Positions 11,401-49,350 of a stretch of 64,000 bases of DNA are shown here, in pieces. A model generated the notes under the pieces. The model was not told where the DNA came from. It made no database searches and saw only the letters and a list, made by a program, of their open reading frames with translations. The translations under genes and the position numbers were made by a program. Each line of letters opens with the position of its first letter. Within the stretch, counting starts at the first letter, position 1. The stretch comes from a virus. The stretch lies in IMG/VR virus record IMGVR_UViG_3300021197_001243, positions 19,757 to 83,756 of that record; one strand, given 5' to 3'.

Positions 11401-14400
11401 CTTACCTCGTAGCGATGCATTCCATCTTGCACGTATACCTCTAAGATTTCTTTCTAGGTTAGGGTCTATGTTATAAATTTTACCTGTCTCTTGCAGTATA
11501 GTATACTGTGTGTCATACATTGTTTTTGCAAACTGATTTCTAAACGCTGTTTGCAATAATGCTTCTTGAAAAGACGTAGGCATTACATAAGGATCCTCCC
11601 CTAATCTCTCTAGTACATCTTTAGCCCAAGGATACTCTTCTTCAAGGTCTATTAATGTATCTAACTGGTCTTGAAAATTTAGTTTACCCTGCAGTTTTGT
11701 TTGTAGAGTTTTTAGTACAGATTTAAGCTCGTATGCACCTCTTAGTCCTGTTGAATTACGTTCTCCGGTTCTGTTAGGAATTGTTCCAAGTATAATTTTA
11801 ATAACTCCTTTTGCAGTGTCTGTAGGAGACATTTCTAATTGATCTGCAATATCTTGGAACATTTTACTGCTTACTTCATCTTCATCTCTAGTATCTTCTA
11901 ACTCTAAGTCAAGTCCTAGCTGTTTCATAAACTGCTGATGAATCATAGTAGCATCATATCTGTTTTCTGTTCCCAGATCCCAAATTCTACCTTGTATTTC
12001 TTTTGAACCTAAAGCACTACTATAAAGAGCTTGATTAGCCTTAAGTACTTGATTATATGCAGCAGTACCTTCTTTCAACTCACTAAGTCTCTCTGCGTAA
12101 TCGTCATACATTAATGCCCATGCATCTCTGTATGCTTGTGCTAATGCTGAACTTTTTACAGGTGTCATATCTAGAAAATCTGCAAATTCTAAATTTACCT
12201 CTCTACCTTCTTCTACTTCGTAAGTTACATTTTGTATAGCCTCTGCTAAATATGAGGTAAGAGTGGAGTTAAGATCTGCAGTAAATACAGCACTTTGACC
12301 ATTTAAAATCTGTGTAGCTGCCATCATAGGGCTACCTACATTCTTATTTTCAAGGTTTCTTTGTGCATTTTTAAACCCTCCTTCTTCAATCTTAGCAAAA
12401 AGCCCCTCTATACCTTTTATAGTGGGATCTATTTCAAAAGCTTTATCAAGTTTAAATACAGTTCTAAACGTATCTCTGATAAAATCAAATAGTTTTTGGA
12501 AAATAGTTCTTTGCTCTGGAGTTACAGTGTCTTGTCCTATTACATATTTACCTTTTGACAATACATATCTCCTGAACTCTTCTGCTAACCATTCTTCTGC
12601 CTCTTTATCTGTAAACTCTGAAAGGAGTTTTGATACAGGCTTATAAGAACGATCTTGTTCTCCTTTAGCTAGCTCTTGGTATGGTACTGCTTTACCTTTT
12701 GTACGTCGTACAATATTGTAAAGTTTTTGTCTATCTCTTGGAGACAACATGTGCAGAGATACATTATGAAATCCTTCATGGTATAGTGCTCCTCCTGGTG
12801 CAAGATCCGATACAAGTATTTTACCAAAATCTTTAAGTTGAGCATATCCTTCTCCACTCATACCAGAAATCATTCCTAATACAGGAATAACCTCTGTAAT
12901 AAGCATACCCTGTAATCTTGCAAGTTCTTCCCCAAATGTTTCCTGTATATACTTATCAGATGGTAATGTGTAAGAGCTTGCTAAGAATGGTAAATCTTCT
13001 TGATCAGTAGATGGACGCTTTGTAGTAGTTGGTGTTGTTGTAGTATCTGGCTCAGTATCATCTTCTTTGTATTTCTCTTCAAAAACTTGCGATTGCTCTT
13101 TAGAAAGATCCCCATCCATATATCTATCTTGGATTCTTTCTTTTAAAGCTTGCGGTTCATCTGGATCTTCAAGTATCTCTATAAGCTCTTCTCCAGACAT
13201 CCGGTTTATAGCCATATCTACATACTTTAAATCAGCTGGGGGCTCGTATGTAGGCTTTTCTTCAGGCTTTTTATTAGGATCAAGATCAGTTAGTTCAGTG
13301 ATAGGTGCTCCAGTAGGAGAAAGTTCAGGAGACTCATTAGGATTTGTAGAAGGACGCGTTACTCCTGCTTTTTCTAAAGTTTCATTTACAGTATCTCTAA
13401 TAACTCTACCTGTTCTTGTAGCTCTTTGTACAGCTTTACCTCTAAAACTCCTTACATATTTAAGAGATTTTCTTTGCTTTTTACTATTGTTGAACATTGC
13501 ATACCCACCATGCCATCTTGGAGCATCGAGTATTTCAGAATCAGAATTTGAAGATATTGGAGTTGCTCTTGTTAATAATGGAGATTGTCCTTCATCTCTA
13601 TCTTTTAAAAGATATTCATTATAATTCTTCCATGTTTTACTGTTATCTTCATCTAGAGTAAGGTCATCGTTTAGAATTACCTGTAGGTATCCTTCCTTTT
13701 TACCATTTGTAATACTACTCTTACTTATATTGTGGTATTTAGTAGTTAAAAACTTTTTGAAAGAATTATATACTTCATCTTCTACACCGGCTTCAAAGTT
13801 TTCTAACCCAATTTCTTGACTTTGATCTCCGAATATAAATGTTCCTTTACGGTGAATTAATTGAAATCTAGGGTCATCTTTTTTAGACTTTTTACCCCGC
13901 ATATAGATTATATCATCTAAAGCTTTTTTAAGAGATATCTTTTCACCTTCAAATTCAAATTCAAATTCTTTTGCAGCTTCATATGCTTTTTCCCAACTTT
14001 TAGTCCCTTCTTGAGCATCATAACTTTCCTTACGTACAGTTATAAGTTTTTGAAGTAATCGGAGTACATTTTCTACTTCATTAGCTTCAAACTCTCTCCC
14101 TATCATAGGTATAGCTAGTTGACGTTTCTTGTCAAACGCCCATACAAGACCTGATCTTGTACGCACAGGCATAGGTATATCTTTAAGAGTTATAGTTTCA
14201 TCTATAGTTTTAGAGGTACCTATATATAACCCTACGTCAGAGTATTGATTTTTACTATGTAGTTTCCCAGAATTTTGTGTGGCCTCATCTTCAAGGACTA
14301 TTTTCCCATTAGATTTACCTGTAATATTATATAAGTATACTTCGTCAGATTCTAAAGTTTCTTTTCTCCAGGTTTCATGAGCTTCACTAATGTCATCTTT

Positions 14401-18486: not shown

Positions 18487-20514
18487 TTAAAAGGTCGTGG
18501 TTCCTTTCGGTTTTGTACCACCAAATAAAAGTCCTAATTCTTCTCCTCTGGCTGCAGAGTTATCTAAAATACCTTGAACTACTGCTCCAAGAGTTTCAGG
18601 TCGCTGTACAGCCTTATATACTTGGTTTGTCCTAGAATTTTTATACTCTATACGAACATAAGATTCAATATTTCCATGAGAAGGATTTCTTCTTACTTTA
18701 TATGTGTAATCTATATGTGTAACACCATTAGGCATTTTTCCATCAGTAATAGGATCTCCTGTTTTTGTAGGTTTAGGATAATTTATAGTTTTTGAAGCAT
18801 TAGGTTTACCTTGTGCAATAAGATCGGATACAGCCCCTAGTCTTTTAAACTCTGCTAGAGGTTTAGATTTGTCTCCTACAATAAGATTAAATACGTCCCC
18901 ATCACCAGACGTATATGTAATCTCCATTCCTCCTGCTAAAGGACCTCTTGCAGTTAATCCATTTATTTGAACTGTAGCCTCTGTATCTCCTCCTTGAAGG
19001 GCGGTTATAATTTCCTTCTGCCAATCCTCATCTAAATCCCAAAATTTACCATTAAATGGATTCCAAGTATCGTTTCTTTCGTCAGCAATTTGATCTCCCC
19101 ATTCATTTAATGTTAATGGAGTATTAGTGGGATTATCTATATCTATAACTTGTAAACTAGGAGAGTTACCTAATACTTTTTTCATAGACTCTATTCCTTC
19201 TATTCTAGGAGCATATACAGTACCTATTTGTACTGCAGGATTTTGTACAATTCCTTCCCAAAGTTCTTCAGAGTACTCTCTATCTGTTTGACCAGGTAGT
19301 CTAGGTACTACATTTGCATACTCCTCTCTAAGATATTGAAGTTTACCTTCTGTATTTCCTCTAATATTTAAAAGGTCCTTTCCTTCTGCAATTTGCTTTC
19401 TTACTCGTTTTGTAGATTCTTCAAGAGTAGATGGTCGAGTCTTACCTCCCCAAGGATCTTTTTGTTGGCCTGGTATAATAGAAATTTTACTGCCATCAGG
19501 ATTAAAATGCTCATCAAAATCAAGATTTTCTGTCTCTGGATCTATATCAACAGTTTGTCTAGATTCTACTGGAGTACTTGTTGGAGTTTCTTGATCTGCT
19601 AAAGCTTTCATATAAGGGCTTTGCATATATTGAAGCTTAGATCCTCTTTGAGGTGCAGCTGCTGAGATTAAATCTTGAAATAGTACTTGCTGTGCTTCTT
19701 GTGCATCATACAAGGTTCCTGTAGCATCATTAACTGAAAGTTGTTGTAATGCTCTCATTTTTTGTAGACCTTCTGCACTATCCATATACAAAGGTAATAC
19801 AGCCTCTGCAACTTTTCTTATTTTATTTCCTGATACTGCAGATCCACTTTGCAACATGAACATTGCTTGTTCTACAGGTAAGTTAAGATTAGCTGCTACT
19901 TGCTGTAAAAGAATAGGATCATCTGCAATACCTTGCATTAGTTGCCGGGCTTTTTCTTCTGCAGGGAGTTTATTTTCAGATAAAGGTTGATATACACCTT
20001 GAGTTTCAGTGACATGTGTATCAGTTACATGCTCAGTTATAACTTCTCCTGTTTTAGGATCTCTCATAGCAAGTCCTGTTACTGGATCTATAACAGGTTT
20101 TTCTCCAAAATCGTAAGATTGTAGCCCATTAGCTCTACGCTGCGATATAACTTCTAATTCTTTTTGTCGATTTTGCCAAGACTCTACAGCGTTAAGTACC
20201 TTTTTATCTGTCATAAAATCTGTTACAGAATCAGATACAGCCATAGATCCAAACTCGTATGCTCCAGAATCTACAACATTTGACATAGTATTTCCTACTC
20301 TCCCTCCAAGATCTTGTACAGTATAGCCATCTTTTTTTAAAGTTTGGACAGACCCCATAGCTCTTTGTAGATTATCATACTCTGCTTTATTAGTAGTATA
20401 TCTATTTGCTAAGGTTTCAGCAGTTTCTTTACGACCAAGATCTACAAACATAGATTCATACTCAGGAAATTGTATTCCTCCGTATTGATATTTCAGCTTC
20501 TCTTTGTAATCCAT
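18487..20514 (-). CDS. Probable virion cargo protein with N-terminal KYQYGG motif
   Basis: 675 residues, 21 bases upstream of the giant polymerase gene and 4 bases after the LysM gene, so very likely cotranscribed with both. No enzymatic domain is recognised. Residues 8-13 read KYQYGG, the same short motif found in the LysM protein and repeatedly in the 1870-residue protein near the portal gene. The N-terminal half is helical with Gln-rich segments; the C-terminal third looks like beta structure (TVQINGLTARGP, MEITYTSGDGDVFNL, YVRIEYKNSRTNQVY). Position suggests a protein stored in the head or tail and ejected with the polymerase. Confidence 0.5.
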   Translation of the reverse strand: MDYKEKLKYQYGGIQFPEYESMFVDLGRKETAETLANRYTTNKAEYDNLQRAMGSVQTLKKDGYTVQDLGGRVGNTMSNVVDSGAYEFGSMAVSDSVTDFMTDKKVLNAVESWQNRQKELEVISQRRANGLQSYDFGEKPVIDPVTGLAMRDPKTGEVITEHVTDTHVTETQGVYQPLSENKLPAEEKARQLMQGIADDPILLQQVAANLNLPVEQAMFMLQSGSAVSGNKIRKVAEAVLPLYMDSAEGLQKMRALQQLSVNDATGTLYDAQEAQQVLFQDLISAAAPQRGSKLQYMQSPYMKALADQETPTSTPVESRQTVDIDPETENLDFDEHFNPDGSKISIIPGQQKDPWGGKTRPSTLEESTKRVRKQIAEGKDLLNIRGNTEGKLQYLREEYANVVPRLPGQTDREYSEELWEGIVQNPAVQIGTVYAPRIEGIESMKKVLGNSPSLQVIDIDNPTNTPLTLNEWGDQIADERNDTWNPFNGKFWDLDEDWQKEIITALQGGDTEATVQINGLTARGPLAGGMEITYTSGDGDVFNLIVGDKSKPLAEFKRLGAVSDLIAQGKPNASKTINYPKPTKTGDPITDGKMPNGVTHIDYTYKVRRNPSHGNIESYVRIEYKNSRTNQVYKAVQRPETLGAVVQGILDNSAARGEELGLLFGGTKPKGTTTF

Positions 20515-20518
20515 TATG

Positions 20519-22867
20519 TTATACTTGTGATGTGAATGCTACATACGTGTCGTGCGCAGATGCTCCTGGATTTTCTTTTTGATACTTTTTTGCAAATTTT
20601 TCATAATTGTTAGCATAGAATCTATTCATTACTCCTGTATCTCCCGCAGCAGCTTTTGCTTGTTCTTCCATTGCATAGTATTCTAAAGTATCTTTTGCCA
20701 TACCCCTAGCTACATCTCCGTAAGCTTTTAATTTATTGTTTTTAGATTCAAGAAGTCTAAGAGCTTCATTTCTTGCAGATACTGCATTTTTATACTCTAT
20801 CTCTGCGTTTTTATATGCTGTTGTATCTTTTCTTTCGGCATTCTTAAATGCTTCTGCTTGTCTTATATCAGCATTCAATTTATTAATTCCAAGTGCCATT
20901 TTTTCTTCTTCTCTCATAAGACCTATTCTAGCTTGCTGATATTTTCCTGCTTTTCCTGGCCCTGTACCTGTATTTATATCTCTTAACATTGCTCTACGCT
21001 CTGACTCTCTTCCTCCTTTAGTTGGATCTTTTACTGAAGGTAAATATATCTGATCTGGAGGCGGAATAGAAGCTACATTTAAAGGATCTACTCCTTCTTT
21101 AGCATTCATAGCAGATATAGTAGCAATTTGCCCTGCTGCACCAAGTGCTGCTATTCCATATGGAGCATATTTATTAAACTCTCCTGTAGATTTGTCTTTA
21201 ACAGGAGGTTTAGCAGGTCTTTTTCCTGAACCTGTAAGTGTGCCAGCTCCAAATCCAGGATACCCTGAAAGAGGTGATGCACCAAGTGGCCCAGTTCCTG
21301 CCGTGTAAGACATAGGAGCTGACGACCATGCTGAAGTTGCTGCAGGTGTAGATGTAGAGGCTGCTCCAGGCATTGTAAGTACTTGTCCTGGCTGTATTCT
21401 ACCAGGGTCAGCACCTATAAGAGCTTTATTAAGATTATATATCTCATTATAATCTGCTATTCCCTGCGCTTGAGCTATACCAGATAATGTATCTCCTGAT
21501 TGTACAGTATATGATCCGGATTGATACTTAGGAAGACCTCCATTTCCAAATCTTTCAGGTTTATTTGTATCCTCTGCTTGACGGTTCATTAGGTCTCTGA
21601 TAACCTTCTTTTTCATGTCTCTAGGGAGATTCATTTTTTCAACTTTATCTCTAGCATCAGCATAGCTTGGAGATTTTTTATTTTTTCCCTTTTTACCATC
21701 TATCCCTCTATGCTCAGAGAACATATAAGTACCTGATTTTACTCCACCCTCTCTTAGAATCTCTTGAGTAATATCAGTTTGATCGATCATTTCTCTGTTT
21801 TCCACTTCTCCTTCTGCCATCCCTGACTCTTCTGGTACAATTTGAGGTCCTCCATCTTGAGGATCACTGTTAAAAGCTACTGGAATACCACCTTGTTCAT
21901 GTGTAGGTCCATGTACTCTACTAAGTCCTCCTACTCCATACTTTTCCATGTACATAGGACCTCCAGACTTCATTTTAGGTAAGCCTCCATCTCTAGATAG
22001 TCCAGATCCTGCACCATAATAATTCATATTAGAATATCTATCTAAGTTTTGTTGCCTTTTATCTGCCTGACGTTGTTTATAAGCCATTCGATCAGCCACT
22101 CTTTCGTCATATGATTTACCTAAATTTCCTTGTTTAGCTTGATAAGAAGCTTTAGCTCCTTCAGAAGCAGCCATTGTAATAGCTCCCGCTGCAGCAGGAA
22201 TCCAAGCAAGTGGACCCCATGCAGCTGAAGTTGCCATTAATCCAGATCCTACAGATGATGCTGCAGATGAAGCCTTTATTTTTTTATTATACCTTTCAAG
22301 TTCTCCTCTAGTCTTTTTATCATAATAATTAGAGGGATCATCAATTTTACTACTTGACGCAAGATTTGCTATTGCTCCAACTGTTCCTGGTACTGCGCCT
22401 AAAGCTGTACTTGTTATTTCCCCTTTTGTCATTTGTTTAGGCTTGGGCTTTAATGCATCAAGGGTAGATGCGTCTGAGTCTTTTCTTTGTCCAAAATTTG
22501 TGTCTTCAGAAAAATCTTGAAGAGTCCTTGTATTCAAAGTGGTGTCCAACCCAGAGTCGTACCCCCCGTATAAATTATTAAAAGTTGTAGATCCTGGAGT
22601 ATAATTCCCAGAAAGGTACCCAGAAGATGAAGGGGCTCCTCCAGTCACACTTCCAGTGTCAAATCCATAAGTATTATTACCTGTAGAAAATCCAGATGTA
22701 CCTAAAGTGCCTGTACCAAATGATCCCGTAGGAGAAAAGCTAGAGCTTCCAAGTGCTGGTGTAGGAGTTACTACTGGACCAGCACCCGCTGTTTGGTATT
22801 TTTTAAGAGGATTTTTTTTAGATTTCTTCTTAGATTTTGCCGGGGATTTCTTTTTAGAGTTTCTCAT
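20519..22867 (-). CDS. LysM-domain virion protein with KYQ/GG motifs
   Basis: 782 residues; the start overlaps the muzzle gene stop as ATGA. The N-terminus is very basic (KKKSPAKSKKKSKKNPLKK) and is followed by KYQTAGAG, then a long Gly/Ser/Thr-rich stretch to about residue 140. A hydrophobic Ala/Gly segment lies near 215-240. At about 295-330 comes DGGLPKMKSGGP and HGPTHEQGGIPVAF. NGGLPKYQSG at about 442-451 leads directly into a LysM domain (YTVQSGDTLSGIAQAQGI ... IQPGQVLTMPG, about 452-500), a fold that binds peptidoglycan-type glycans. The C-terminal part is a charged, Ala-rich helix. It may help the ejected proteins cross the wall; the role is inferred from domain and position. Confidence 0.65.
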   Translation of the reverse strand: MRNSKKKSPAKSKKKSKKNPLKKYQTAGAGPVVTPTPALGSSSFSPTGSFGTGTLGTSGFSTGNNTYGFDTGSVTGGAPSSSGYLSGNYTPGSTTFNNLYGGYDSGLDTTLNTRTLQDFSEDTNFGQRKDSDASTLDALKPKPKQMTKGEITSTALGAVPGTVGAIANLASSSKIDDPSNYYDKKTRGELERYNKKIKASSAASSVGSGLMATSAAWGPLAWIPAAAGAITMAASEGAKASYQAKQGNLGKSYDERVADRMAYKQRQADKRQQNLDRYSNMNYYGAGSGLSRDGGLPKMKSGGPMYMEKYGVGGLSRVHGPTHEQGGIPVAFNSDPQDGGPQIVPEESGMAEGEVENREMIDQTDITQEILREGGVKSGTYMFSEHRGIDGKKGKNKKSPSYADARDKVEKMNLPRDMKKKVIRDLMNRQAEDTNKPERFGNGGLPKYQSGSYTVQSGDTLSGIAQAQGIADYNEIYNLNKALIGADPGRIQPGQVLTMPGAASTSTPAATSAWSSAPMSYTAGTGPLGASPLSGYPGFGAGTLTGSGKRPAKPPVKDKSTGEFNKYAPYGIAALGAAGQIATISAMNAKEGVDPLNVASIPPPDQIYLPSVKDPTKGGRESERRAMLRDINTGTGPGKAGKYQQARIGLMREEEKMALGINKLNADIRQAEAFKNAERKDTTAYKNAEIEYKNAVSARNEALRLLESKNNKLKAYGDVARGMAKDTLEYYAMEEQAKAAAGDTGVMNRFYANNYEKFAKKYQKENPGASAHDTYVAFTSQV

Positions 22868-32021: not shown

Positions 32022-33410
32022 CTAAGCAATTGTGGCTCCTGATATTCCGATAACATGCCAGTCACCATTTGTAAATAATAAATGTACATTTTCTCCTACA
32101 GCATTGAAGGTTATGTTCGTACCTCCTGCTAGGCTTGTTGGAGTAAGAGTACCTGCGCCCCCAGCTGTAGCTATTTGACAGATAAATTTTGTTTGACCTT
32201 CAGCACCATCTGCAAGTGAAAGTGCATTTGTACCTGTATCTGTAAAATGAGTTATTTGACTTGTTATGTCTACTGCTCCAGCTCCTACTAAATTTTGCGG
32301 TCCCTGTGTAAATTGTAGATATCCATTAGGTAACTGTACATTTTGTGCATTTGAAATAGATAGTCCTTTTAAACCTGAACCTGATCCAGACCCAGAGTAT
32401 GTTGAAAGATTAAGATGCCCTCCTACTCCTGAAGCACCGCCTGCACCTGCAGTTATATACATATGCCCTCCAGTACCAGATCCAGAACCTGTTCCTGAGC
32501 CTATATTCATATTTCCGCCTGCAGTATTACCTGAACCTCCATTAGCACCATTTAGAGTAAGTTCGGCACCAGCTATACTAGATGCTGCATTTTTAACCTT
32601 TATTTCATAGTTTTTATAAGTATTAGTATTACCTATTTCTAAAACTCTTGCTGTAGTACCTACTAAAGACAGCTGTGCTGCTAGAGAAGGTACTGTTGGA
32701 GTGGTATCTCCTATTCCTACATATCCTGAAGCATCTACTGTGATACCTTCATCTGTACCGTCGCCACTTATAAAGCTGTTTCCAGCTGCAGCATCCATAT
32801 TAATATTATAAGTATTAAGATCAATATCTGCTCCTGCAGAACTCATACTTGCGGCAAGAGTAATACTTCCTGCTCCATTAGTAATAGTCATTCCTGTACC
32901 GGCAGTAAGTGTAGCTACAGAAGGATATCCATTAGCAGTGTGCCCTATAAGTAACTGTCCATTGGTAGCCATAGGACTTGATGCAGCTAAAGTACTTGCA
33001 GCTGATGCATAAAGTATAGATCCTTTAGTAACACTACTTAGACCTGTACCTCCATTTACAACAGATAAAATTCCAGATACATCTGAAGCTAAAGCTACAG
33101 TAGTTATAAAGTTAGAGGTGCTATTATCACATTTACTTAAGTCTATACCTGCTTCTAAAGCTGTAAGAACAATATTATCTGCTACTGTAGCAACAGTAAG
33201 AAGGCCTGTATCTCCAGACTTAATACCTTTAAAGTTTAGCTGATTTTTATTACTAATACTTGAAAACAAACTTTCTGACCCTGCACCTGCAGTAGCTAGT
33301 GAAGGAAATAAAGATTGTAATTGAAATTTTAATCTGCTTGTTACAGGTATGTAATGGGAAGAGGTTACACTCGTTTTAGCTAACGTTCCCCAATTAATTA
33401 CTTCTGACAT
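32022..33410 (-). CDS. Tail or head fibre with Gly/Ser-rich shaft
   Basis: 462 residues. An N-terminal attachment part is followed by VVNGGTGLSSVTKGSILYAS, a short motif common in phage tail fibres. Then come repeated beta turns and a low-complexity Gly/Ser shaft with repeats of the GSGTGSGSG and AGAGGASGVGGH kind at about residues 285-345. The C-terminal domain (HFTDTGTNALSLADG ... HLLFTNGDWHVIGISG) looks like a small beta tip. It probably forms a trimeric fibre. Genes on either side are also virion surface candidates. Confidence 0.6.
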   Translation of the reverse strand: MSEVINWGTLAKTSVTSSHYIPVTSRLKFQLQSLFPSLATAGAGSESLFSSISNKNQLNFKGIKSGDTGLLTVATVADNIVLTALEAGIDLSKCDNSTSNFITTVALASDVSGILSVVNGGTGLSSVTKGSILYASAASTLAASSPMATNGQLLIGHTANGYPSVATLTAGTGMTITNGAGSITLAASMSSAGADIDLNTYNINMDAAAGNSFISGDGTDEGITVDASGYVGIGDTTPTVPSLAAQLSLVGTTARVLEIGNTNTYKNYEIKVKNAASSIAGAELTLNGANGGSGNTAGGNMNIGSGTGSGSGTGGHMYITAGAGGASGVGGHLNLSTYSGSGSGSGLKGLSISNAQNVQLPNGYLQFTQGPQNLVGAGAVDITSQITHFTDTGTNALSLADGAEGQTKFICQIATAGGAGTLTPTSLAGGTNITFNAVGENVHLLFTNGDWHVIGISGATIA

Positions 33411-43294: not shown

Positions 43295-46200
43295 CTATTG
43301 ATATCTATGTAAACCTCCATCTCTAAATTCTTTTCTACCAGTATTATCCCCATAATTTACATATCCTTCAGGAATAGTTTCCCATTTTTTAGTTTTTCTA
43401 TTATATCTAGGAAGTCCTTTAGCATCATAAGTTTCTGCTGTACCAAAGGTTATAGCATTAGTAGGTGCTACAGTTGGCTCAATTATATCTTCATTGCCTA
43501 CTTCTGTAGGTAATAAATTCGGGTGTTTAACTGGCATCTGTTTAATTGGATCAATCTTATTCCACCAATTTCCTGGTGGAGGAAATCGTGTTGAAGTAGT
43601 AGGAGTAGGAGATGTTTGATTTTTAATGTAGCTGTCTGGAACTCCTTTTGAGCCATATTTCTCTACCCGCATCTTTTTTTGCTCTGGAGTAAGCATATCA
43701 AAAGGTGTAATAGCCAAATCATCATATGTATATATATGCACTTTTCTTGAATTTACTTCATGAGAGCCGTCTCTTGGAAGAGCAGTTAATTCAGCTTCTC
43801 CTTGCGGATCGATAAACCTATGTCTATACGTTGTAGGAAAGTCATCATCATCTCCACCACCCTGCCACCAATCTTTAGCTCCAACAAGATTTCCTTTTCT
43901 AGTTGGGGGAGATGAATTTGGGTCTAAATTCTTTTTTTCATAGTTTAAAGCGTCTACCAGTCCTTGAGAATCTTCAGACCATCCCTCTCTGGTCAGGAGT
44001 TGTGAATTATACATATCATCTGCTTGAGATGAGCTGCTTGTTTCTAAAAATTTAACATCTTTAGTTCCTTTGGCTATTAAGTCCGCAAGTATTTTATTGT
44101 TCTGCAATAAATTTATAGAGTCCAACCTTGTTGGAACTCCAGCATTTTGATATTTAGGTAAACCTCCGTTTTGATAATTTGTTACAACTTTACGTTCTCC
44201 AGTATTATCTCCAGGGTTATAGGTTCTTGTTGCTTTCCCTTCCTTTGCCAAATTTCTATGAGCAGTAAACAGTCTACCAGAAGGTTTTGACGGTTTAGCG
44301 TATTGTTGCATCCGTCTTATTTGTCGGTTTTGCTCTACCCATTCAGGAGGTTTTTCATATTCCATTCTAGAAGTTGCCATTACTGGTGAAGGTTTAGGAT
44401 ATATTGGATTTATAGAGTCTGTACTATCTAGATAAACCCCAGTAGATTTTATAGTGGGATGTATATAATCCATACTTTCAGATACATCCAGGTATCCTTT
44501 TTGATCTAATTGATCGTGCATTTTTCTATATGCCTCAAGAATAGCTTCTCTAGGCCCACCTACAGGATTACTAAAAAACTCACTTTTATCGTCATTGAAT
44601 GCGTTATACATTACGCCATCAAGTTCTGTAGGGGATTTAGTATCTAGATGATGTTTTTTAAAAACTTCTGGGTGAAAATGATCACCTAACTTCCCTTCAT
44701 CCATTTCCCTTTGAAGCCTCTCTCTCTTCGACTCTACAGGAGAAGCTTTAAATGCTGCTTCCATTGCCGCACGATCTTTTATTTCTTTTTCTCTTTCTTC
44801 TGGAGACAAAGAGTTTAAATGTTCTTGCAGTTTTACTTCAAATTCTTTACCTTCTTTTCTTTCAATAGCTTTCTCTTCTTGCGCTGCAACAATATCAAGT
44901 TCTTTCTGTAGATTCATCATATCCCACAAAAGAATACTATCGTTTCTTGAAGGTGCTATAGGATTTGTAGGAGTAGTTGCCACTCCAGCCATCTGATATT
45001 TAGGTATAGGGCCTCCGGTTTGATGATTACGTATTTGTCTATCAAATCTTCTTACCGATCTATCAGCTCTATTGGATGTCATTCCTTGATCCATTAAAGA
45101 CTCTTTATACGATTCATCATGAACTGCATCTATAGGGGGTAAATCGTATCCCTTTTTCTTAAGTTTATGAAAATCAGAGTTTACTACAGGATTGATTTCT
45201 TGCCTTATAAATTTATTAGTTTTTTTCCATGCTTCTTTTCTAGATAAATTCTTATCAGCTAGGTGATACTTGTAAATATCCTCTCTAAGATTATTTCGAT
45301 TCTCTCTATCACTATCTCCAACATTGAGCATATTTTGCCCAGTAATATCTGGGTAAGACCCTGATTCATTTGGAACTCCTGTATTGTAACCATATTGGGC
45401 TCCCATTCCAGTTCCAAAGAAAGGGCTGTATCCAAATCTCTTAGCATTCCAATGTTTATCTCCCTCGTATTCTACCTCTGGGTAATCTGCACTAATATCT
45501 GGATATAATCTACCAGTTCCTTTTTGGGCTTTTATATTATATCCTTGCCTTCCTTTAGACACATAATCTTCTACCCATTCTGTTTCCCACCCTTTTTTCT
45601 CTGGTTTTTTATCAGGGTCACTCCATAAATTCAAAGACTCCTGATATCCTACCCCCGGCTTATTTCTTGTACTCAGCCATCCAGAGCGAGTCACTGGGTC
45701 TGTAGTATGGTTTTTACCTTTTCCAACAGAATACAATCTATAAAACTCTGATTCAGCACGAGTTTCTGGTCTTTCAGTATTTCGTCTAATACTTCTTTTT
45801 GTAAGTGGATCTGTTTCTCCTCCGTCTTCATACTTAGGTATTGGCCCTCCGTATTTAAACTTATTTTTAGCTCTTAATCTACTTTTCTCTACTGCGTCCC
45901 AACCAGCCTGTCCATATCTTTCAATATATTTTTCTTTAGACCATATACTCCCGTCAGGCATTTTAATATTATATCCAGGCCTTTCTTCATGTTCCATTCT
46001 AGAAGTTGCCATTGTCTTCTTTATGGGTTCTACAACTTCTTCTACAACAGGCTCTGCAGTAGGAGTGTCTTTAGATTTAATTGGAGCAGTTGTTTTCAAT
46101 GTCCAAGGTATAGGTTTAATAGGTGCTACAGCTTTTGGATCGTTTAGATTTAGGCTTTTAACCTTAACAGCATTGTCAACCCCTTTTTTACGGCTTATAA

Positions 46201-48649
46201 CATCTTTTAGAGCGTCATACCCTAATGTATCTGCAACATTATTGTTTCGGGGATAAGATCGCATAAAAGGTAAATCTGTATGTATCCACGTTTTTGCATT
46301 GTTCGTCCACGATGATAAATAATATTCTGCATCATTTATCCATTCGGAATCATAGTCAGATACTTCGTTTTCACCCTTTAGTATTGCTTGAAGTAAATTA
46401 TTATCTACAGTTGGTGTATCACTAACAAACTTAGGTGTCCACTTACTTGCTCTCGGATCATGTTTATCAACACGCGCATTTTCTACGGAATCAAGTAAGC
46501 CTAGATGCTTATCAAACATAGTTTTAAACTCGGAGCTATCCGCATATGCTTCTGTTCGTCGTTTATTTAAATGCTTAAATCTTGCATTTAATAGGCGTAA
46601 ATTGTAATTATCTAAATTTTTGTCTCCTGTCATTTGATAATTAAGCTCTTCTCCTGGTCCACGAAGAGTTGATGCATCTAGTAATTCTTTAAGATTAGAT
46701 TTTGATCTCGTGCTATCTTTTTCTTTTTTATTAGGATCTGTAGGATCAACTTCTCCTCCGTTTTTGTACGTATGTAGACTTCTCATTCTACTAGATAGTT
46801 TTGGAGTTTTATCCGAAGCAAGCTCAGTTGTATATCTTTTCCCTTCAAAAGTGAACTCTTTTTCTCCAGCAGCTCTTGCCTGTCTAAATGCTTCTCCACG
46901 AGTCATAGTTTTTTCTACAGGTCTCTGTTCAAATCCCATGACTGATTCAGCCATAGTAGTTCTTGATTTAGGTTCAGGAGTAGTATCTAAGTTCCAGTTT
47001 CTTACAATAGTAGAATCAGGATATCCTAATTCTCTTAATTGATTGTAAGAGTATTTTTTACCATCAGTATGCATAAGATTTACAGCCTCTCTATCTCCTT
47101 GCCATTCTTTTTCAGGACCTCCCGTTTGATATCTATGTATGCCTCCGTTTTGATAACCCATATAACCTTTCATACTCCTATTTCTATCAGGATCTGTTAT
47201 AGAGTCCATAAGTTCTTTATCTAAAGCTCTGTATTCTCCTTTTCCTCCAAAATTCTTCTCTTCGTGTTCAAAAATTTGATCTTCAGTGACTCCATGCTTT
47301 TCCATATAAGCTTTATTATAACGAGTACTTCTACTTTTCAGTTTCTTTTCCCATTCTGCAGCACCACGATCAGCTAAATCTTTTTGTCTCCAAGGAAATG
47401 CTCCATACTGAGACGCACTTTGATCTTCGTCTTCTCCTGAAAACATTCCTCCTGTAGGTTGTCCTTTTTGATGCAAAGCTCCTTCAAGGATATTTACTCC
47501 TTCCATCATTGTAAGAGCAGGTCCAAGTATTTTAGTAAAGTGAGAAAGAACATTTCCATAAGGTATTTTAAACTTTCTTATATATTCAGCAGCAGTTTTT
47601 CCAAATTTATCATACCCTGCTTTACTTCCTGTACCATAAAGTTTTTCTCCTAAGTAATCCATTGCTTTAGGTAGACCTGTCTTGTCGACCATTTTTCCTA
47701 CATCAAATTTTCCTAAATATTCTTTTCTAGCTCTCGCAAGACCTTCTTTACCTACCCATCCTTTTTCTGCTGCAATTGCTGCAGCTTCTTCTGCTACAGA
47801 AGCATTTCCCCCAGCAAGACTTAAATATTTATAATCAGGTATAATATTACCCCCTTTTAATCCTTCTACTCCTCCTAATCCTATTCTAGAACCACTTAAA
47901 GGATTATGAACTCCTTTAGGAAATAAATAAGAGTCTTTAAAAAGTCTACCAGGGCTATCCCAAGCTGCTAAAAAAGGTCCCATACCCTTTTCAACTCCTT
48001 CTGCAACACTTTTATAAGCTGAATTTTCAGGTTTTTCTGTCCATTCTTCTAATTTATCAATATCGTGTAAAGAAGTAGTTAGTCCTAAGAATGGAGTAGG
48101 AAGACTCCCAGCCATTTCAACTCCCCCATATAAAAATCCAGGCATAACTTCTGAAGTATCTTCCTCCATTCCTAGATTTTTTAATACATAGTTTTTTGCT
48201 TGTCTTAGTTTATGATTAGAAAGTAAAACACCTCCTCCTGGACCTGTAGGGTCTATGTCTGTTTCTATACCAACTCCTAGTGGATCAGAATAAGGAAAAT
48301 AACTTCTTACTCCTACACCAGGACCCCCTGCAGAAGTAAATGTTCCAGTACCTTCAAATCCTATTCTTGAAAATTCTTCTCTTGGAGAGGTTAAGTAAGG
48401 TTTTCCCTCTACTTCATATTCTTGAGGTGTACCCCACCATTCTTGTAATTTATTATCTGCTCCTCTAAGAACACCTTTATTACTATTACTTTCTCTAGAT
48501 TCTAAGTCTTTTAAAAATTTTAATTGCTCTTTTAATTTTTTAGAATCTGTTTCTTTTTTTACAGCCTGTTCAGATGCGTACACATTATCTGCTGCTAAAG
48601 GCTTTTTTACACCAGCTATCTGGTATTTAGGTAAACCTCCGTTTTGATA
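43295..48649 (-). repeat. Series of coding repeats for the KYQ/GG motif
   Basis: Copies are spaced irregularly through the 1870-residue gene. They keep the core Gly-Gly-x-(Pro/His)-(Lys/Arg)-Tyr-Gln/Glu, usually followed by x-(Ala/Gly)-Gly. The DNA of the copies is similar but not identical (for example TTAGGTAAACCTCC against TTAGGTATAGGGCC on the + strand), so conservation is at protein level. Related single copies lie at 20476-20493, 21517-21545, 21958-21995 and 22783-22803 in two other genes. Confidence 0.75.
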
Positions 48650-48907
48650 CTCAGGATTTTGAGTTCTGTAAGTCGGGCCAAAAGGACGTCGATTTCTTCC
48701 TTGTTGTGGACCGTTAGCATAAACTCCAAAAGAAGGATTTGTATTTGTAAACTTACTTTGGTCCGTGTAAGGAGTTTCAGATACAGGAAGAGTATTGTAA
48801 TTAGAAATTACAGGTGTATCTAAAGCATTTTTAGGGACAAACCTTTTTATATCATCAAGACTAGATGACTGCAGTTTAGGAGAAAACTTTATTTTCTTTC
48901 TTTTCAT
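43295..48907 (-). CDS. Giant modular protein with repeated GG(L/I)(P/H)(K/R)YQ motif
   Basis: 1870 residues, hydrophilic, starting MKRKKIKFSP. Seven copies or half-copies of a short motif divide it into modules: NGGLPKYQIAG (48611-48649), NGGIHRYQTGG (about 47115-47157), YKNGGEVDP (about 46750), YGGPIPKYEDGG (about 45810-45860), TGGPIPKYQMAG (about 44985-45030), NGGLPKYQNAG (about 44140-44185) and a terminal DGGLHRYQ. Some modules share further sequence (ATSRMEHEERPGYN / ATSRMEYEKPPEWV; GDNTGERK / GDNTGRKE). An internal Gly/Ala-rich region near residues 250-480 may contact membranes. No enzyme is recognised. It lies between portal-side genes and the scaffold, so it is probably packaged in the head. 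The motif may act in cargo loading, as a cleavage site, or as an assembly contact. Confidence 0.55.
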   Translation of the reverse strand: MKRKKIKFSPKLQSSSLDDIKRFVPKNALDTPVISNYNTLPVSETPYTDQSKFTNTNPSFGVYANGPQQGRNRRPFGPTYRTQNPEYQNGGLPKYQIAGVKKPLAADNVYASEQAVKKETDSKKLKEQLKFLKDLESRESNSNKGVLRGADNKLQEWWGTPQEYEVEGKPYLTSPREEFSRIGFEGTGTFTSAGGPGVGVRSYFPYSDPLGVGIETDIDPTGPGGGVLLSNHKLRQAKNYVLKNLGMEEDTSEVMPGFLYGGVEMAGSLPTPFLGLTTSLHDIDKLEEWTEKPENSAYKSVAEGVEKGMGPFLAAWDSPGRLFKDSYLFPKGVHNPLSGSRIGLGGVEGLKGGNIIPDYKYLSLAGGNASVAEEAAAIAAEKGWVGKEGLARARKEYLGKFDVGKMVDKTGLPKAMDYLGEKLYGTGSKAGYDKFGKTAAEYIRKFKIPYGNVLSHFTKILGPALTMMEGVNILEGALHQKGQPTGGMFSGEDEDQSASQYGAFPWRQKDLADRGAAEWEKKLKSRSTRYNKAYMEKHGVTEDQIFEHEEKNFGGKGEYRALDKELMDSITDPDRNRSMKGYMGYQNGGIHRYQTGGPEKEWQGDREAVNLMHTDGKKYSYNQLRELGYPDSTIVRNWNLDTTPEPKSRTTMAESVMGFEQRPVEKTMTRGEAFRQARAAGEKEFTFEGKRYTTELASDKTPKLSSRMRSLHTYKNGGEVDPTDPNKKEKDSTRSKSNLKELLDASTLRGPGEELNYQMTGDKNLDNYNLRLLNARFKHLNKRRTEAYADSSEFKTMFDKHLGLLDSVENARVDKHDPRASKWTPKFVSDTPTVDNNLLQAILKGENEVSDYDSEWINDAEYYLSSWTNNAKTWIHTDLPFMRSYPRNNNVADTLGYDALKDVISRKKGVDNAVKVKSLNLNDPKAVAPIKPIPWTLKTTAPIKSKDTPTAEPVVEEVVEPIKKTMATSRMEHEERPGYNIKMPDGSIWSKEKYIERYGQAGWDAVEKSRLRAKNKFKYGGPIPKYEDGGETDPLTKRSIRRNTERPETRAESEFYRLYSVGKGKNHTTDPVTRSGWLSTRNKPGVGYQESLNLWSDPDKKPEKKGWETEWVEDYVSKGRQGYNIKAQKGTGRLYPDISADYPEVEYEGDKHWNAKRFGYSPFFGTGMGAQYGYNTGVPNESGSYPDITGQNMLNVGDSDRENRNNLREDIYKYHLADKNLSRKEAWKKTNKFIRQEINPVVNSDFHKLKKKGYDLPPIDAVHDESYKESLMDQGMTSNRADRSVRRFDRQIRNHQTGGPIPKYQMAGVATTPTNPIAPSRNDSILLWDMMNLQKELDIVAAQEEKAIERKEGKEFEVKLQEHLNSLSPEEREKEIKDRAAMEAAFKASPVESKRERLQREMDEGKLGDHFHPEVFKKHHLDTKSPTELDGVMYNAFNDDKSEFFSNPVGGPREAILEAYRKMHDQLDQKGYLDVSESMDYIHPTIKSTGVYLDSTDSINPIYPKPSPVMATSRMEYEKPPEWVEQNRQIRRMQQYAKPSKPSGRLFTAHRNLAKEGKATRTYNPGDNTGERKVVTNYQNGGLPKYQNAGVPTRLDSINLLQNNKILADLIAKGTKDVKFLETSSSSQADDMYNSQLLTREGWSEDSQGLVDALNYEKKNLDPNSSPPTRKGNLVGAKDWWQGGGDDDDFPTTYRHRFIDPQGEAELTALPRDGSHEVNSRKVHIYTYDDLAITPFDMLTPEQKKMRVEKYGSKGVPDSYIKNQTSPTPTTSTRFPPPGNWWNKIDPIKQMPVKHPNLLPTEVGNEDIIEPTVAPTNAITFGTAETYDAKGLPRYNRKTKKWETIPEGYVNYGDNTGRKEFRDGGLHRYQ

Positions 48908-49350
48908 TTCCTTTTGCTTTTCCGGTATTTTTCAATCTTTTCGGAAAAGGAAAGGTCTTTAAGTGGTCTTTCAACAACTCCGCCTGCTCGGTATTGTGTA
49001 GGGTTTTCTATAACTGTATCTACCTTTGGACCCATAGGAACATTGTCTATTCCAGGAGGAACAGCTTCGTAAGATCTTACAAGTCCTCCTTGAGAGTCAA
49101 ATCCTTGCATATCTACAGGATAGTCCATACCCATTGTATTAAAATCTTGTCCTCCAGTGTTAGGAAAAGCCATAGATCTTGGTGGGCCCTCAGTTAATCC
49201 TATTTGTTGTTCTTGAGGAGTAGATGCTATATCCATACCTTGTTGCTCTTGCATATTTAAGGCTTCTTGCTGGTCTATAAGCTCAGTTATACTTCCAAAA
49301 TAAGCAGGATCAGACTCCCAAGCACTTCGCATTATATCTAAAGCATCCAT
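48904..49350 (-). CDS. Small portal-adjacent protein
   Basis: 148 residues. The start overlaps the portal gene stop by one base (TAATG), and the end overlaps the giant modular gene by ATGA. The first third is acidic and Gln-rich; a middle part is Gly/Pro/Met-rich (GLTEGPPRSMAFPNTGG) and the C-terminus is basic (FSEKIEKYRKSKRK). RAGGVVERPL and QGGLVRSYE are weak relatives of the KYQ/GG motif in the next gene. Function unknown; co-assembly with the portal or modular protein is inferred. Confidence 0.45.
   Translation of the reverse strand: MDALDIMRSAWESDPAYFGSITELIDQQEALNMQEQQGMDIASTPQEQQIGLTEGPPRSMAFPNTGGQDFNTMGMDYPVDMQGFDSQGGLVRSYEAVPPGIDNVPMGPKVDTVIENPTQYRAGGVVERPLKDLSFSEKIEKYRKSKRK

Follow-up and report, generated by a model that had tools for sequence, protein, structure and literature searches.

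Why should one short peptide motif, built around KYQ and a pair of glycines, recur in proteins whose genes lie far apart in a phage genome? The question is raised by a 64,000-nucleotide stretch of DNA (the window; bases 19757-83756 of the 83.7-kb virus record IMGVR_UViG_3300021197_001243) from an aquatic crAss-like phage, in which the motif is found in a modular protein of 1870 residues, a LysM protein of 782 residues and a protein of 675 residues. Here we show that the motif is restricted to two gene positions, is biased towards N-termini, coincides with the borders of protein modules and is conserved at the protein level. We judge it about an even chance that it is a recognised docking or loading element of the cargo proteins carried in the virion, which in addition joins their modules.

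The capsid, portal and terminase proteins of the window match the crAss-like families phrog_11589, phrog_6547 and phrog_6681, and its gene order parallels that of Flavobacterium phage Fpv3 and Bacteroides phage crAss001. Along the minus strand, starting at the portal gene, genes for proteins of 148, 1870 and 367 residues are followed by the capsid protein gene, the tail and ring genes and the muzzle gene (1824 residues), after which come the 782-residue LysM protein, the 675-residue protein and the RNA polymerase (RNAP) block proteins of 4324 and 1639 residues. Judged by gene position, the 367-residue protein is probably scaffold-like. In the window and its relatives, the 782- and 675-residue genes stand directly after the muzzle gene and before the RNAP block, as in crAss001 and Fpv3, and occupy the slots of crAss001 gp45 and gp46 (C1 and C2 below), cargo proteins which are packed in the capsid and tail (PMC10172136). 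Comparisons were made over 15 genomes, namely the window record and 14 related IMG/VR contigs, whole or in large part, with open reading frames (ORFs) divided into class A (between the portal and scaffold-like genes), class B (between the muzzle gene and the RNAP block) and all others; classes A and B are referred to as cargo loci. The strict motif was defined as [KR][YF]Q-x-[AG]G and its full form as YQNGG-[LI][PH][KR]YQx[AG]G. Because contigs G013, G014, G016 and G017 had originally been found via the motif, the count was repeated on nine contigs chosen by their capsid protein, with the window excluded.

Relative to 2000 shuffles of each protein, the strict motif is far in excess, with four copies in the 1870-residue protein (shuffle mean 0.005, maximum 1) and one each in the 782-residue (0.011) and 675-residue (0.002) proteins; [LI][PH][KR][YFA]Q occurs five times in the first of these (shuffle mean 0.011). 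All 6 of the 6 strict matches in the 83.7-kb record fall in these three ORFs, leaving the remaining 23,297 residues without any (p = 5e-6), and the motif written as a DNA pattern gave 5 matches in the record against 0 for a reversed control. Across the 15 genomes, 23 strict copies (9 in class A, 14 in class B) lie in the 38,156 residues of the cargo loci, as opposed to a single copy in 329,555 residues elsewhere (Fisher 5e-22). Corresponding counts for [LI][PH][KR][YFA]Q are 27 and 2, and reversed patterns are not enriched (strict motif reversed: 0 in cargo loci, 2 elsewhere). Among the nine capsid-chosen genomes, 11 strict copies are found in cargo loci and 1 elsewhere (p = 1e-10), the strict form being present in the cargo loci of 6/9 and [YF][QK]xGG in those of 8/9. 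The motif is kept in related phages and, by these counts, is far from equally frequent in their other proteins. Third codon positions vary among copies (AAA/AAG, TAT/TAC, CAA/CAG), so that conservation is at the protein level, which bears out the claim of the first-pass annotation that three distant genes share the motif as protein; copies inside the 1870-residue gene are nevertheless alike in DNA, up to 88% of 41 nt.

The only strict copy that belongs to neither class A nor class B lies in a small ring- or tail-region protein of G018 (32122-32622), with MKYQAGGFLEP near its C-terminus, and a small protein among the ring and tail genes of G012 (46428-47213) has the motif near its C-terminus as well (KKGGIKYKRGGRR-stop). 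A scan of the collection for GGxPKYQ returned 35 stretches, of which six or seven are convincing, all in crAss-like contigs; most of the 35 were discounted as lying outside long ORFs or within unrelated proteins.

Position within the proteins is equally skewed. A form of the motif lies in the first 30 residues of 20 of the 40 class A and B proteins, compared with 3.2 expected under random rotation of each sequence (never above 11 in 1000 trials). Examples include MDYKEKLKYQYGG in the window, MRTALTSTRSKFKKYQGGGG in G007, MKYKKLLPKYQLG in G002, MYKKLKKYQNG in G013 and MRKDSILQQYYYKKLPKYQGAG in G016, and the G007 relative of the 675-residue protein begins MEKLKKYQLGG. In standalone genes of G001 and L011, the motif is retained at the new N-terminus (MYRGLHRYQKAG). 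An argument from the conservation of MYRGLHRYQKAG against only 39% identity in the remainder was abandoned, since the first 30 residues are identical owing to exchange of the part behind them. Carriers of the motif are unrelated outside it, or alike in modules only; a common N-terminal element thus stands on diverse and probably packaged proteins, as is the case for the capsid targeting sequence (CTS) of T4-type phages.

The motif also marks joints between exchangeable modules, which had not been foreseen in the first-pass annotation. Over all pairs, 41/74 sides of homology boundaries have [YF][QKRED]x[GA]G no more than 8 residues away (5.5 expected), and 21/37 after dereplication (3.1 expected). 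[KR][YF]Q without the glycines, for which glycine cannot be responsible, is found near 10/37 dereplicated boundary sides (1.3 expected). In the gene after the 148-residue gene, G001 and L011 share 36 identical residues up to KFQKGG, have unrelated middles, and resume homology from LPKYQLAG; the C1 proteins of the window and G019 match almost exactly as far as the motif at residue 293, from which point they differ. Queried as a whole, the 1870-residue protein has no relatives among phage records or IMG/VR contigs, sharing only single modules, and sequence searches of Pfam, PHROG and the PDB gave no match to it. Relatives possess separate pieces of it, never the whole, and many of these pieces are bounded by the motif: residues 1023-1310 are 89% identical to residues 358-646 of an L003 protein, with the motif flanking both sides, and that protein likewise terminates in the motif (GGLHRYQQ-stop). 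The surroundings of the motif are predicted to be disordered (predicted local distance difference test, pLDDT, ~30-40) in a model that is weak overall (46.6, window C1 segment). The seven whole or half copies counted earlier for the 1870-residue protein, KYQYGG near the N-terminus of the 675-residue protein and the three forms in the LysM protein were all located, and their coordinates are given in Table 1.

Table 1. Motif copies in the window and the proteins and modules that bear them
Feature	Residues	Position	Strand	Basis
148-aa protein upstream of 1870-aa gene; QYRAGG near C-terminus	119-124 (QYRAGG)	48904..49350	minus	
1870-aa modular protein, class A, seven motif copies		43295..48907	minus	ORF
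Motif 1, YQNGGLPKYQIAG	87-99 of 1870	48611..48649	minus	
Motif 2, YQNGGIHRYQTGG	585-597 of 1870	47117..47155	minus	
Half motif YKNGG	714-718 of 1870	46754..46768	minus	
Motif KFKYGGPIPKYEDGG; L003-shared module begins here	1016-1030 of 1870	45818..45862	minus	
Motif HQTGGPIPKYQMAG; L003-shared module finishes here	1295-1308 of 1870	44984..45025	minus	
Motif YQNGGLPKYQNAG; L110-shared module begins here	1578-1590 of 1870	44138..44176	minus	
C-terminal half motif GGLHRYQ-stop	1864-1870 of 1870	43298..43318	minus	
782-aa LysM protein, cargo protein C1 (gp45) slot, adjoins muzzle gene		20519..22867	minus	gene order
N-terminal motif KYQTAGAG behind lysine-rich stretch	23-30 of 782	22778..22801	minus	
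Motif DGGLPKMKSGG, before presumed portal-docking module	293-303 of 782	21959..21991	minus	
Presumed portal-docking module (HE..GG / E.E / Y[MV][FW]S[DE]H)	~304-440 of 782	21548..21958	minus	alignments
Motif NGGLPKYQSG, separates docking module from LysM	442-451 of 782	21515..21544	minus	
675-aa protein, cargo protein C2 (gp46) slot		18487..20514	minus	gene order
N-terminal motif KYQYGG	8-13 of 675	20476..20493	minus	

Several smaller modules were noted as well. The 148-residue protein, considered together with G018, G005 and G011, has a domain ending VIExPxxY-x-x-GG, and some relatives have a related N-terminal region joined there to modules that lie downstream. A module of ~45 residues (PSGNITM ... 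MPG ... FPG ... VFE-PLPKxQ), often terminated by the motif, is found at the N-termini of G013_30437, G014_75681, G017_80923 and phi4:1 gp40 and at residues 1027-1073 of L110. Marine C1 proteins (L189 ORF 1-2793, residues ~306-356; L190, ~913-948) contain a module (Y/W)ANIHAKR-RIKAGSGE--R-PG, portable and placed behind the motif, whose 44-51 residues are 65-75% identical to ORF stretches in cyanophages and pelagiphages. The 2688-residue post-muzzle cargo protein of G014 (L153:1-3747) has three LysM domains, an L,D-transpeptidase-like (YkuD) match and LPKAQ motifs, which places cell-wall modules within the cargo. A mini-module of the 1870-residue protein, AFRQARAAGEKEFTFEGKRYTTEL (residues 673-696; 46820-46891, minus strand), is 63% identical over 27 residues to G014_83795, and a similar stretch occurs in a G016 cargo protein.

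A structural context for the motif is offered by the LysM protein, in which the LysM domain itself occupies residues 453-500. Residues 425-552 of crAss001 gp45 form a domain bound on the portal wing (PMC10172136). As a full-length MAFFT alignment misplaced this domain, profiles were compared instead, and the profile of a WSDHL module (signature E.GEII ... HE.GG ... Y[VI]WSDHL ... G.S.A) from marine relatives aligned with a Steigviridae profile of gp45 425-552 at 91-93% probability in hhalign, whereas reversed and shuffled controls reached at most 7.6%. A search of a viral-model library with the module matched the C1-like proteins of Fpv3, phi4:1 and cr118. On this sequence comparison, the C1 module is presumably a relative of gp45's portal-docking domain. 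A GG-[LMF]-[PM]-KY[KQ]-like element stands immediately behind the WSDHL module in most of the C1 proteins aligned; in crAss001 gp45, NAFGG (424-428) and FAYGG (559-563) flank the resolved domain, which consequently sits between two aromatic-GG joints.

Beyond this lineage, strict KYQ was not found in the cargo proteins of crAss001, phi14:2, Fpv3, p-crAssphage, cr127 or ProJPt-Bp1. ProJPt-Bp1 has VPRYAxGG and variants in many copies, both in post-muzzle proteins and in its presumed muzzle, p-crAssphage has the looser forms KYKxGG and KFAVGG, and among Steigviridae 6/7 C1 proteins combine a basic N-terminus with [YF]xxG or [YF]xxGG at most about 30 residues from it (rotation P = 0.002). The presumed muzzle of ProJPt-Bp1 (gene 33; L185 16436-23413), with five [KR][YF]xxGG copies including VPRYESGG and VPRYADGG, is the only muzzle with many copies among those seen. 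The C1-like gp40 of the cultured phage phi4:1 contains NFQAGG, SYQNGG, TFQIGG and KFQSGG and is annotated in its GenBank record as a virion protein from tandem mass spectrometry; the strict motif is present in 0/10 other phi4:1 virion ORFs read alongside it. Of seven DNA matches to [YF][QK]xGG in the 146-kb phi4:1 record, four are within the gp40 gene (reversed control: 3 matches). Gene position, the gp40 annotation and the place of the motif beside a module presumably related to the gp45 docking domain support the earlier suggestion that the motif belongs to packaged proteins.

If the motif is a docking or loading element, each cargo module would tend to bear one copy, usually in front. During procapsid assembly the aromatic and basic part may bind one partner shared by all of them (the portal, the scaffold or a ring protein), through which unrelated proteins would be loaded at the portal vertex; the glycines would supply flexibility at the joint, so that modules could thread singly through portal and tail during ejection. 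Several observations weigh against this proposal. G003, G010, G011 and G012 carry few or no strict copies, and the cargo proteins of crAss001, phi14:2, Fpv3 and cr127 are without [KR][YF]xx[GA]G, so that the strict form is lineage-specific and its tie to the [YF]xxGG joints of other families is looser. The presence of class A proteins in virions is putative. The window's own copy of the docking module aligns with the others but is divergent, and as a Foldseek search of a module model from a relative (pLDDT 70.0) against the PDB gave nothing significant, the connection to the gp45 docking domain is one of profiles.

The explanation that survives best besides a docking element is that the motif is only a joint, a flexible linker providing short homology for module exchange with no specific binding, conserved through copying of the one joint and through selection for a hinge harmless to neighbouring domains. 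Coincidence with homology borders, glycine richness, predicted disorder and the portable modules shared with cyanophages and pelagiphages are all consistent with such a joint, and the DNA likeness between copies within the 1870-residue gene is sufficient to aid recombination. We nevertheless consider it rather unlikely, given that half of the cargo-locus proteins have an N-terminal copy with nothing ahead to join, that the 1870-residue protein ends in one, that [KR][YF]Q is conserved despite codon variation, and that the aromatic-xx-GG form recurs in distant families.

Less probable still, although far from negligible, is a processing site, in which case the long chains would be polyproteins cleaved there, either ahead of ejection or following it, and N-terminal copies would be propeptide borders, as in T4 internal proteins. 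Placement of the motif between modules is regular, some relatives encode modules as separate genes, and in a published analogy P1 DdrB is processed ahead of packaging (PMC5512222). The first-pass annotation had named a zincin of the giant protein as candidate protease; if the 1870-residue protein was meant, this part of its interpretation falls, as HExxH is not present there, and the interpretation as a whole has partial support. The sole HExxH of the genome is HEGFH at residue 1896 of the 4324-residue RNAP-associated protein (12766-12780, minus strand). A co-encoded zincin, possibly the enzyme responsible, is therefore available and is conserved in most relatives of that protein, yet it occurs irrespective of the strict motif, and the crassvirus structure paper nowhere mentions cleavage or proteases. 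The motif is, moreover, retained at new N-termini and at an extreme C-terminus, where a cut would be needless. Because a linker leaves terminal copies unexplained and cleavage leaves their retention at chain ends unexplained, these copies point to a tag that is recognised rather than to a simple cleavage site; a cleavable tag is compatible with them and would merge the two interpretations. A role after ejection, such as binding the host envelope or phage DNA, fits the basic and aromatic composition and the adjacent LysM, PG_binding_1 and L,D-transpeptidase-like modules, and is very improbable considering that proteins with very different modules share the motif. Reading the motif as LPxTG or a double-glycine leader was set aside, since no sortase-like or C39 surroundings came to notice and many copies lie within the chain.

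By analogy, the putative docking element works most like the CTS of T4 internal proteins, which has been demonstrated to direct encapsidation and is a short element on otherwise diverse head-packaged, injected proteins (PMC3012670). We do not class it as a CTS; it differs in being repeated at internal joints and in its aromatic-xx-GG core, and both a role in packaging and a removal by the prohead protease, as with the T4-type CTS, would be putative for it. The marine C1 proteins resemble crAss001 gp45 (PMC10172136) in a gene adjoining the muzzle, a presumably related docking module, flanking aromatic-GG joints and a basic N-terminus, and depart from it in having KYQxGG where gp45 has [AS][FY]GG or FxxGG and in carrying other modules (LysM and others). 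Likeness to polyvalent proteins (PMC5512222) lies in very long multi-module chains predicted to be packaged and injected, and in ART-PolyVal and metallopeptidase domains nearby in the phage (a sub-threshold ART-PolyVal match at residues 3862-3929 of the 4324-residue protein). Polyvalent proteins combine several effector domains and a metallopeptidase in one chain, whereas neither these defining domains nor any other Pfam match was found in the 1870-residue protein; the searched parts of that paper mention neither linkers nor crAssphage. The element in crAss-like phages is not described in the literature searched, with most subscription papers outside coverage.

Crassviruses rank with the most abundant human gut viruses, and the cargo protein in their head and tail amounts to several megadaltons (PMC10172136); in the literature searched we found no account of how this cargo is selected and loaded. 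We tentatively propose, as a possibility that we would not yet favour, that [KR][YF]xxGG is an order-wide crassvirus loading code, a portable tag which directs modules of whatever kind to the portal vertex and tail, where they would be packaged and injected. If true, such a code would account for the assembly of several megadaltons of unrelated cargo and for the swapping of modules without loss of packaging. An element restricted to cargo proteins provides a handle for recognising cargo genes that have no other similarity, such as those of class A, and is possibly usable as a tag to place foreign proteins in crassvirus virions. Swaps at the motif suggest how these phages vary the proteins that they inject.

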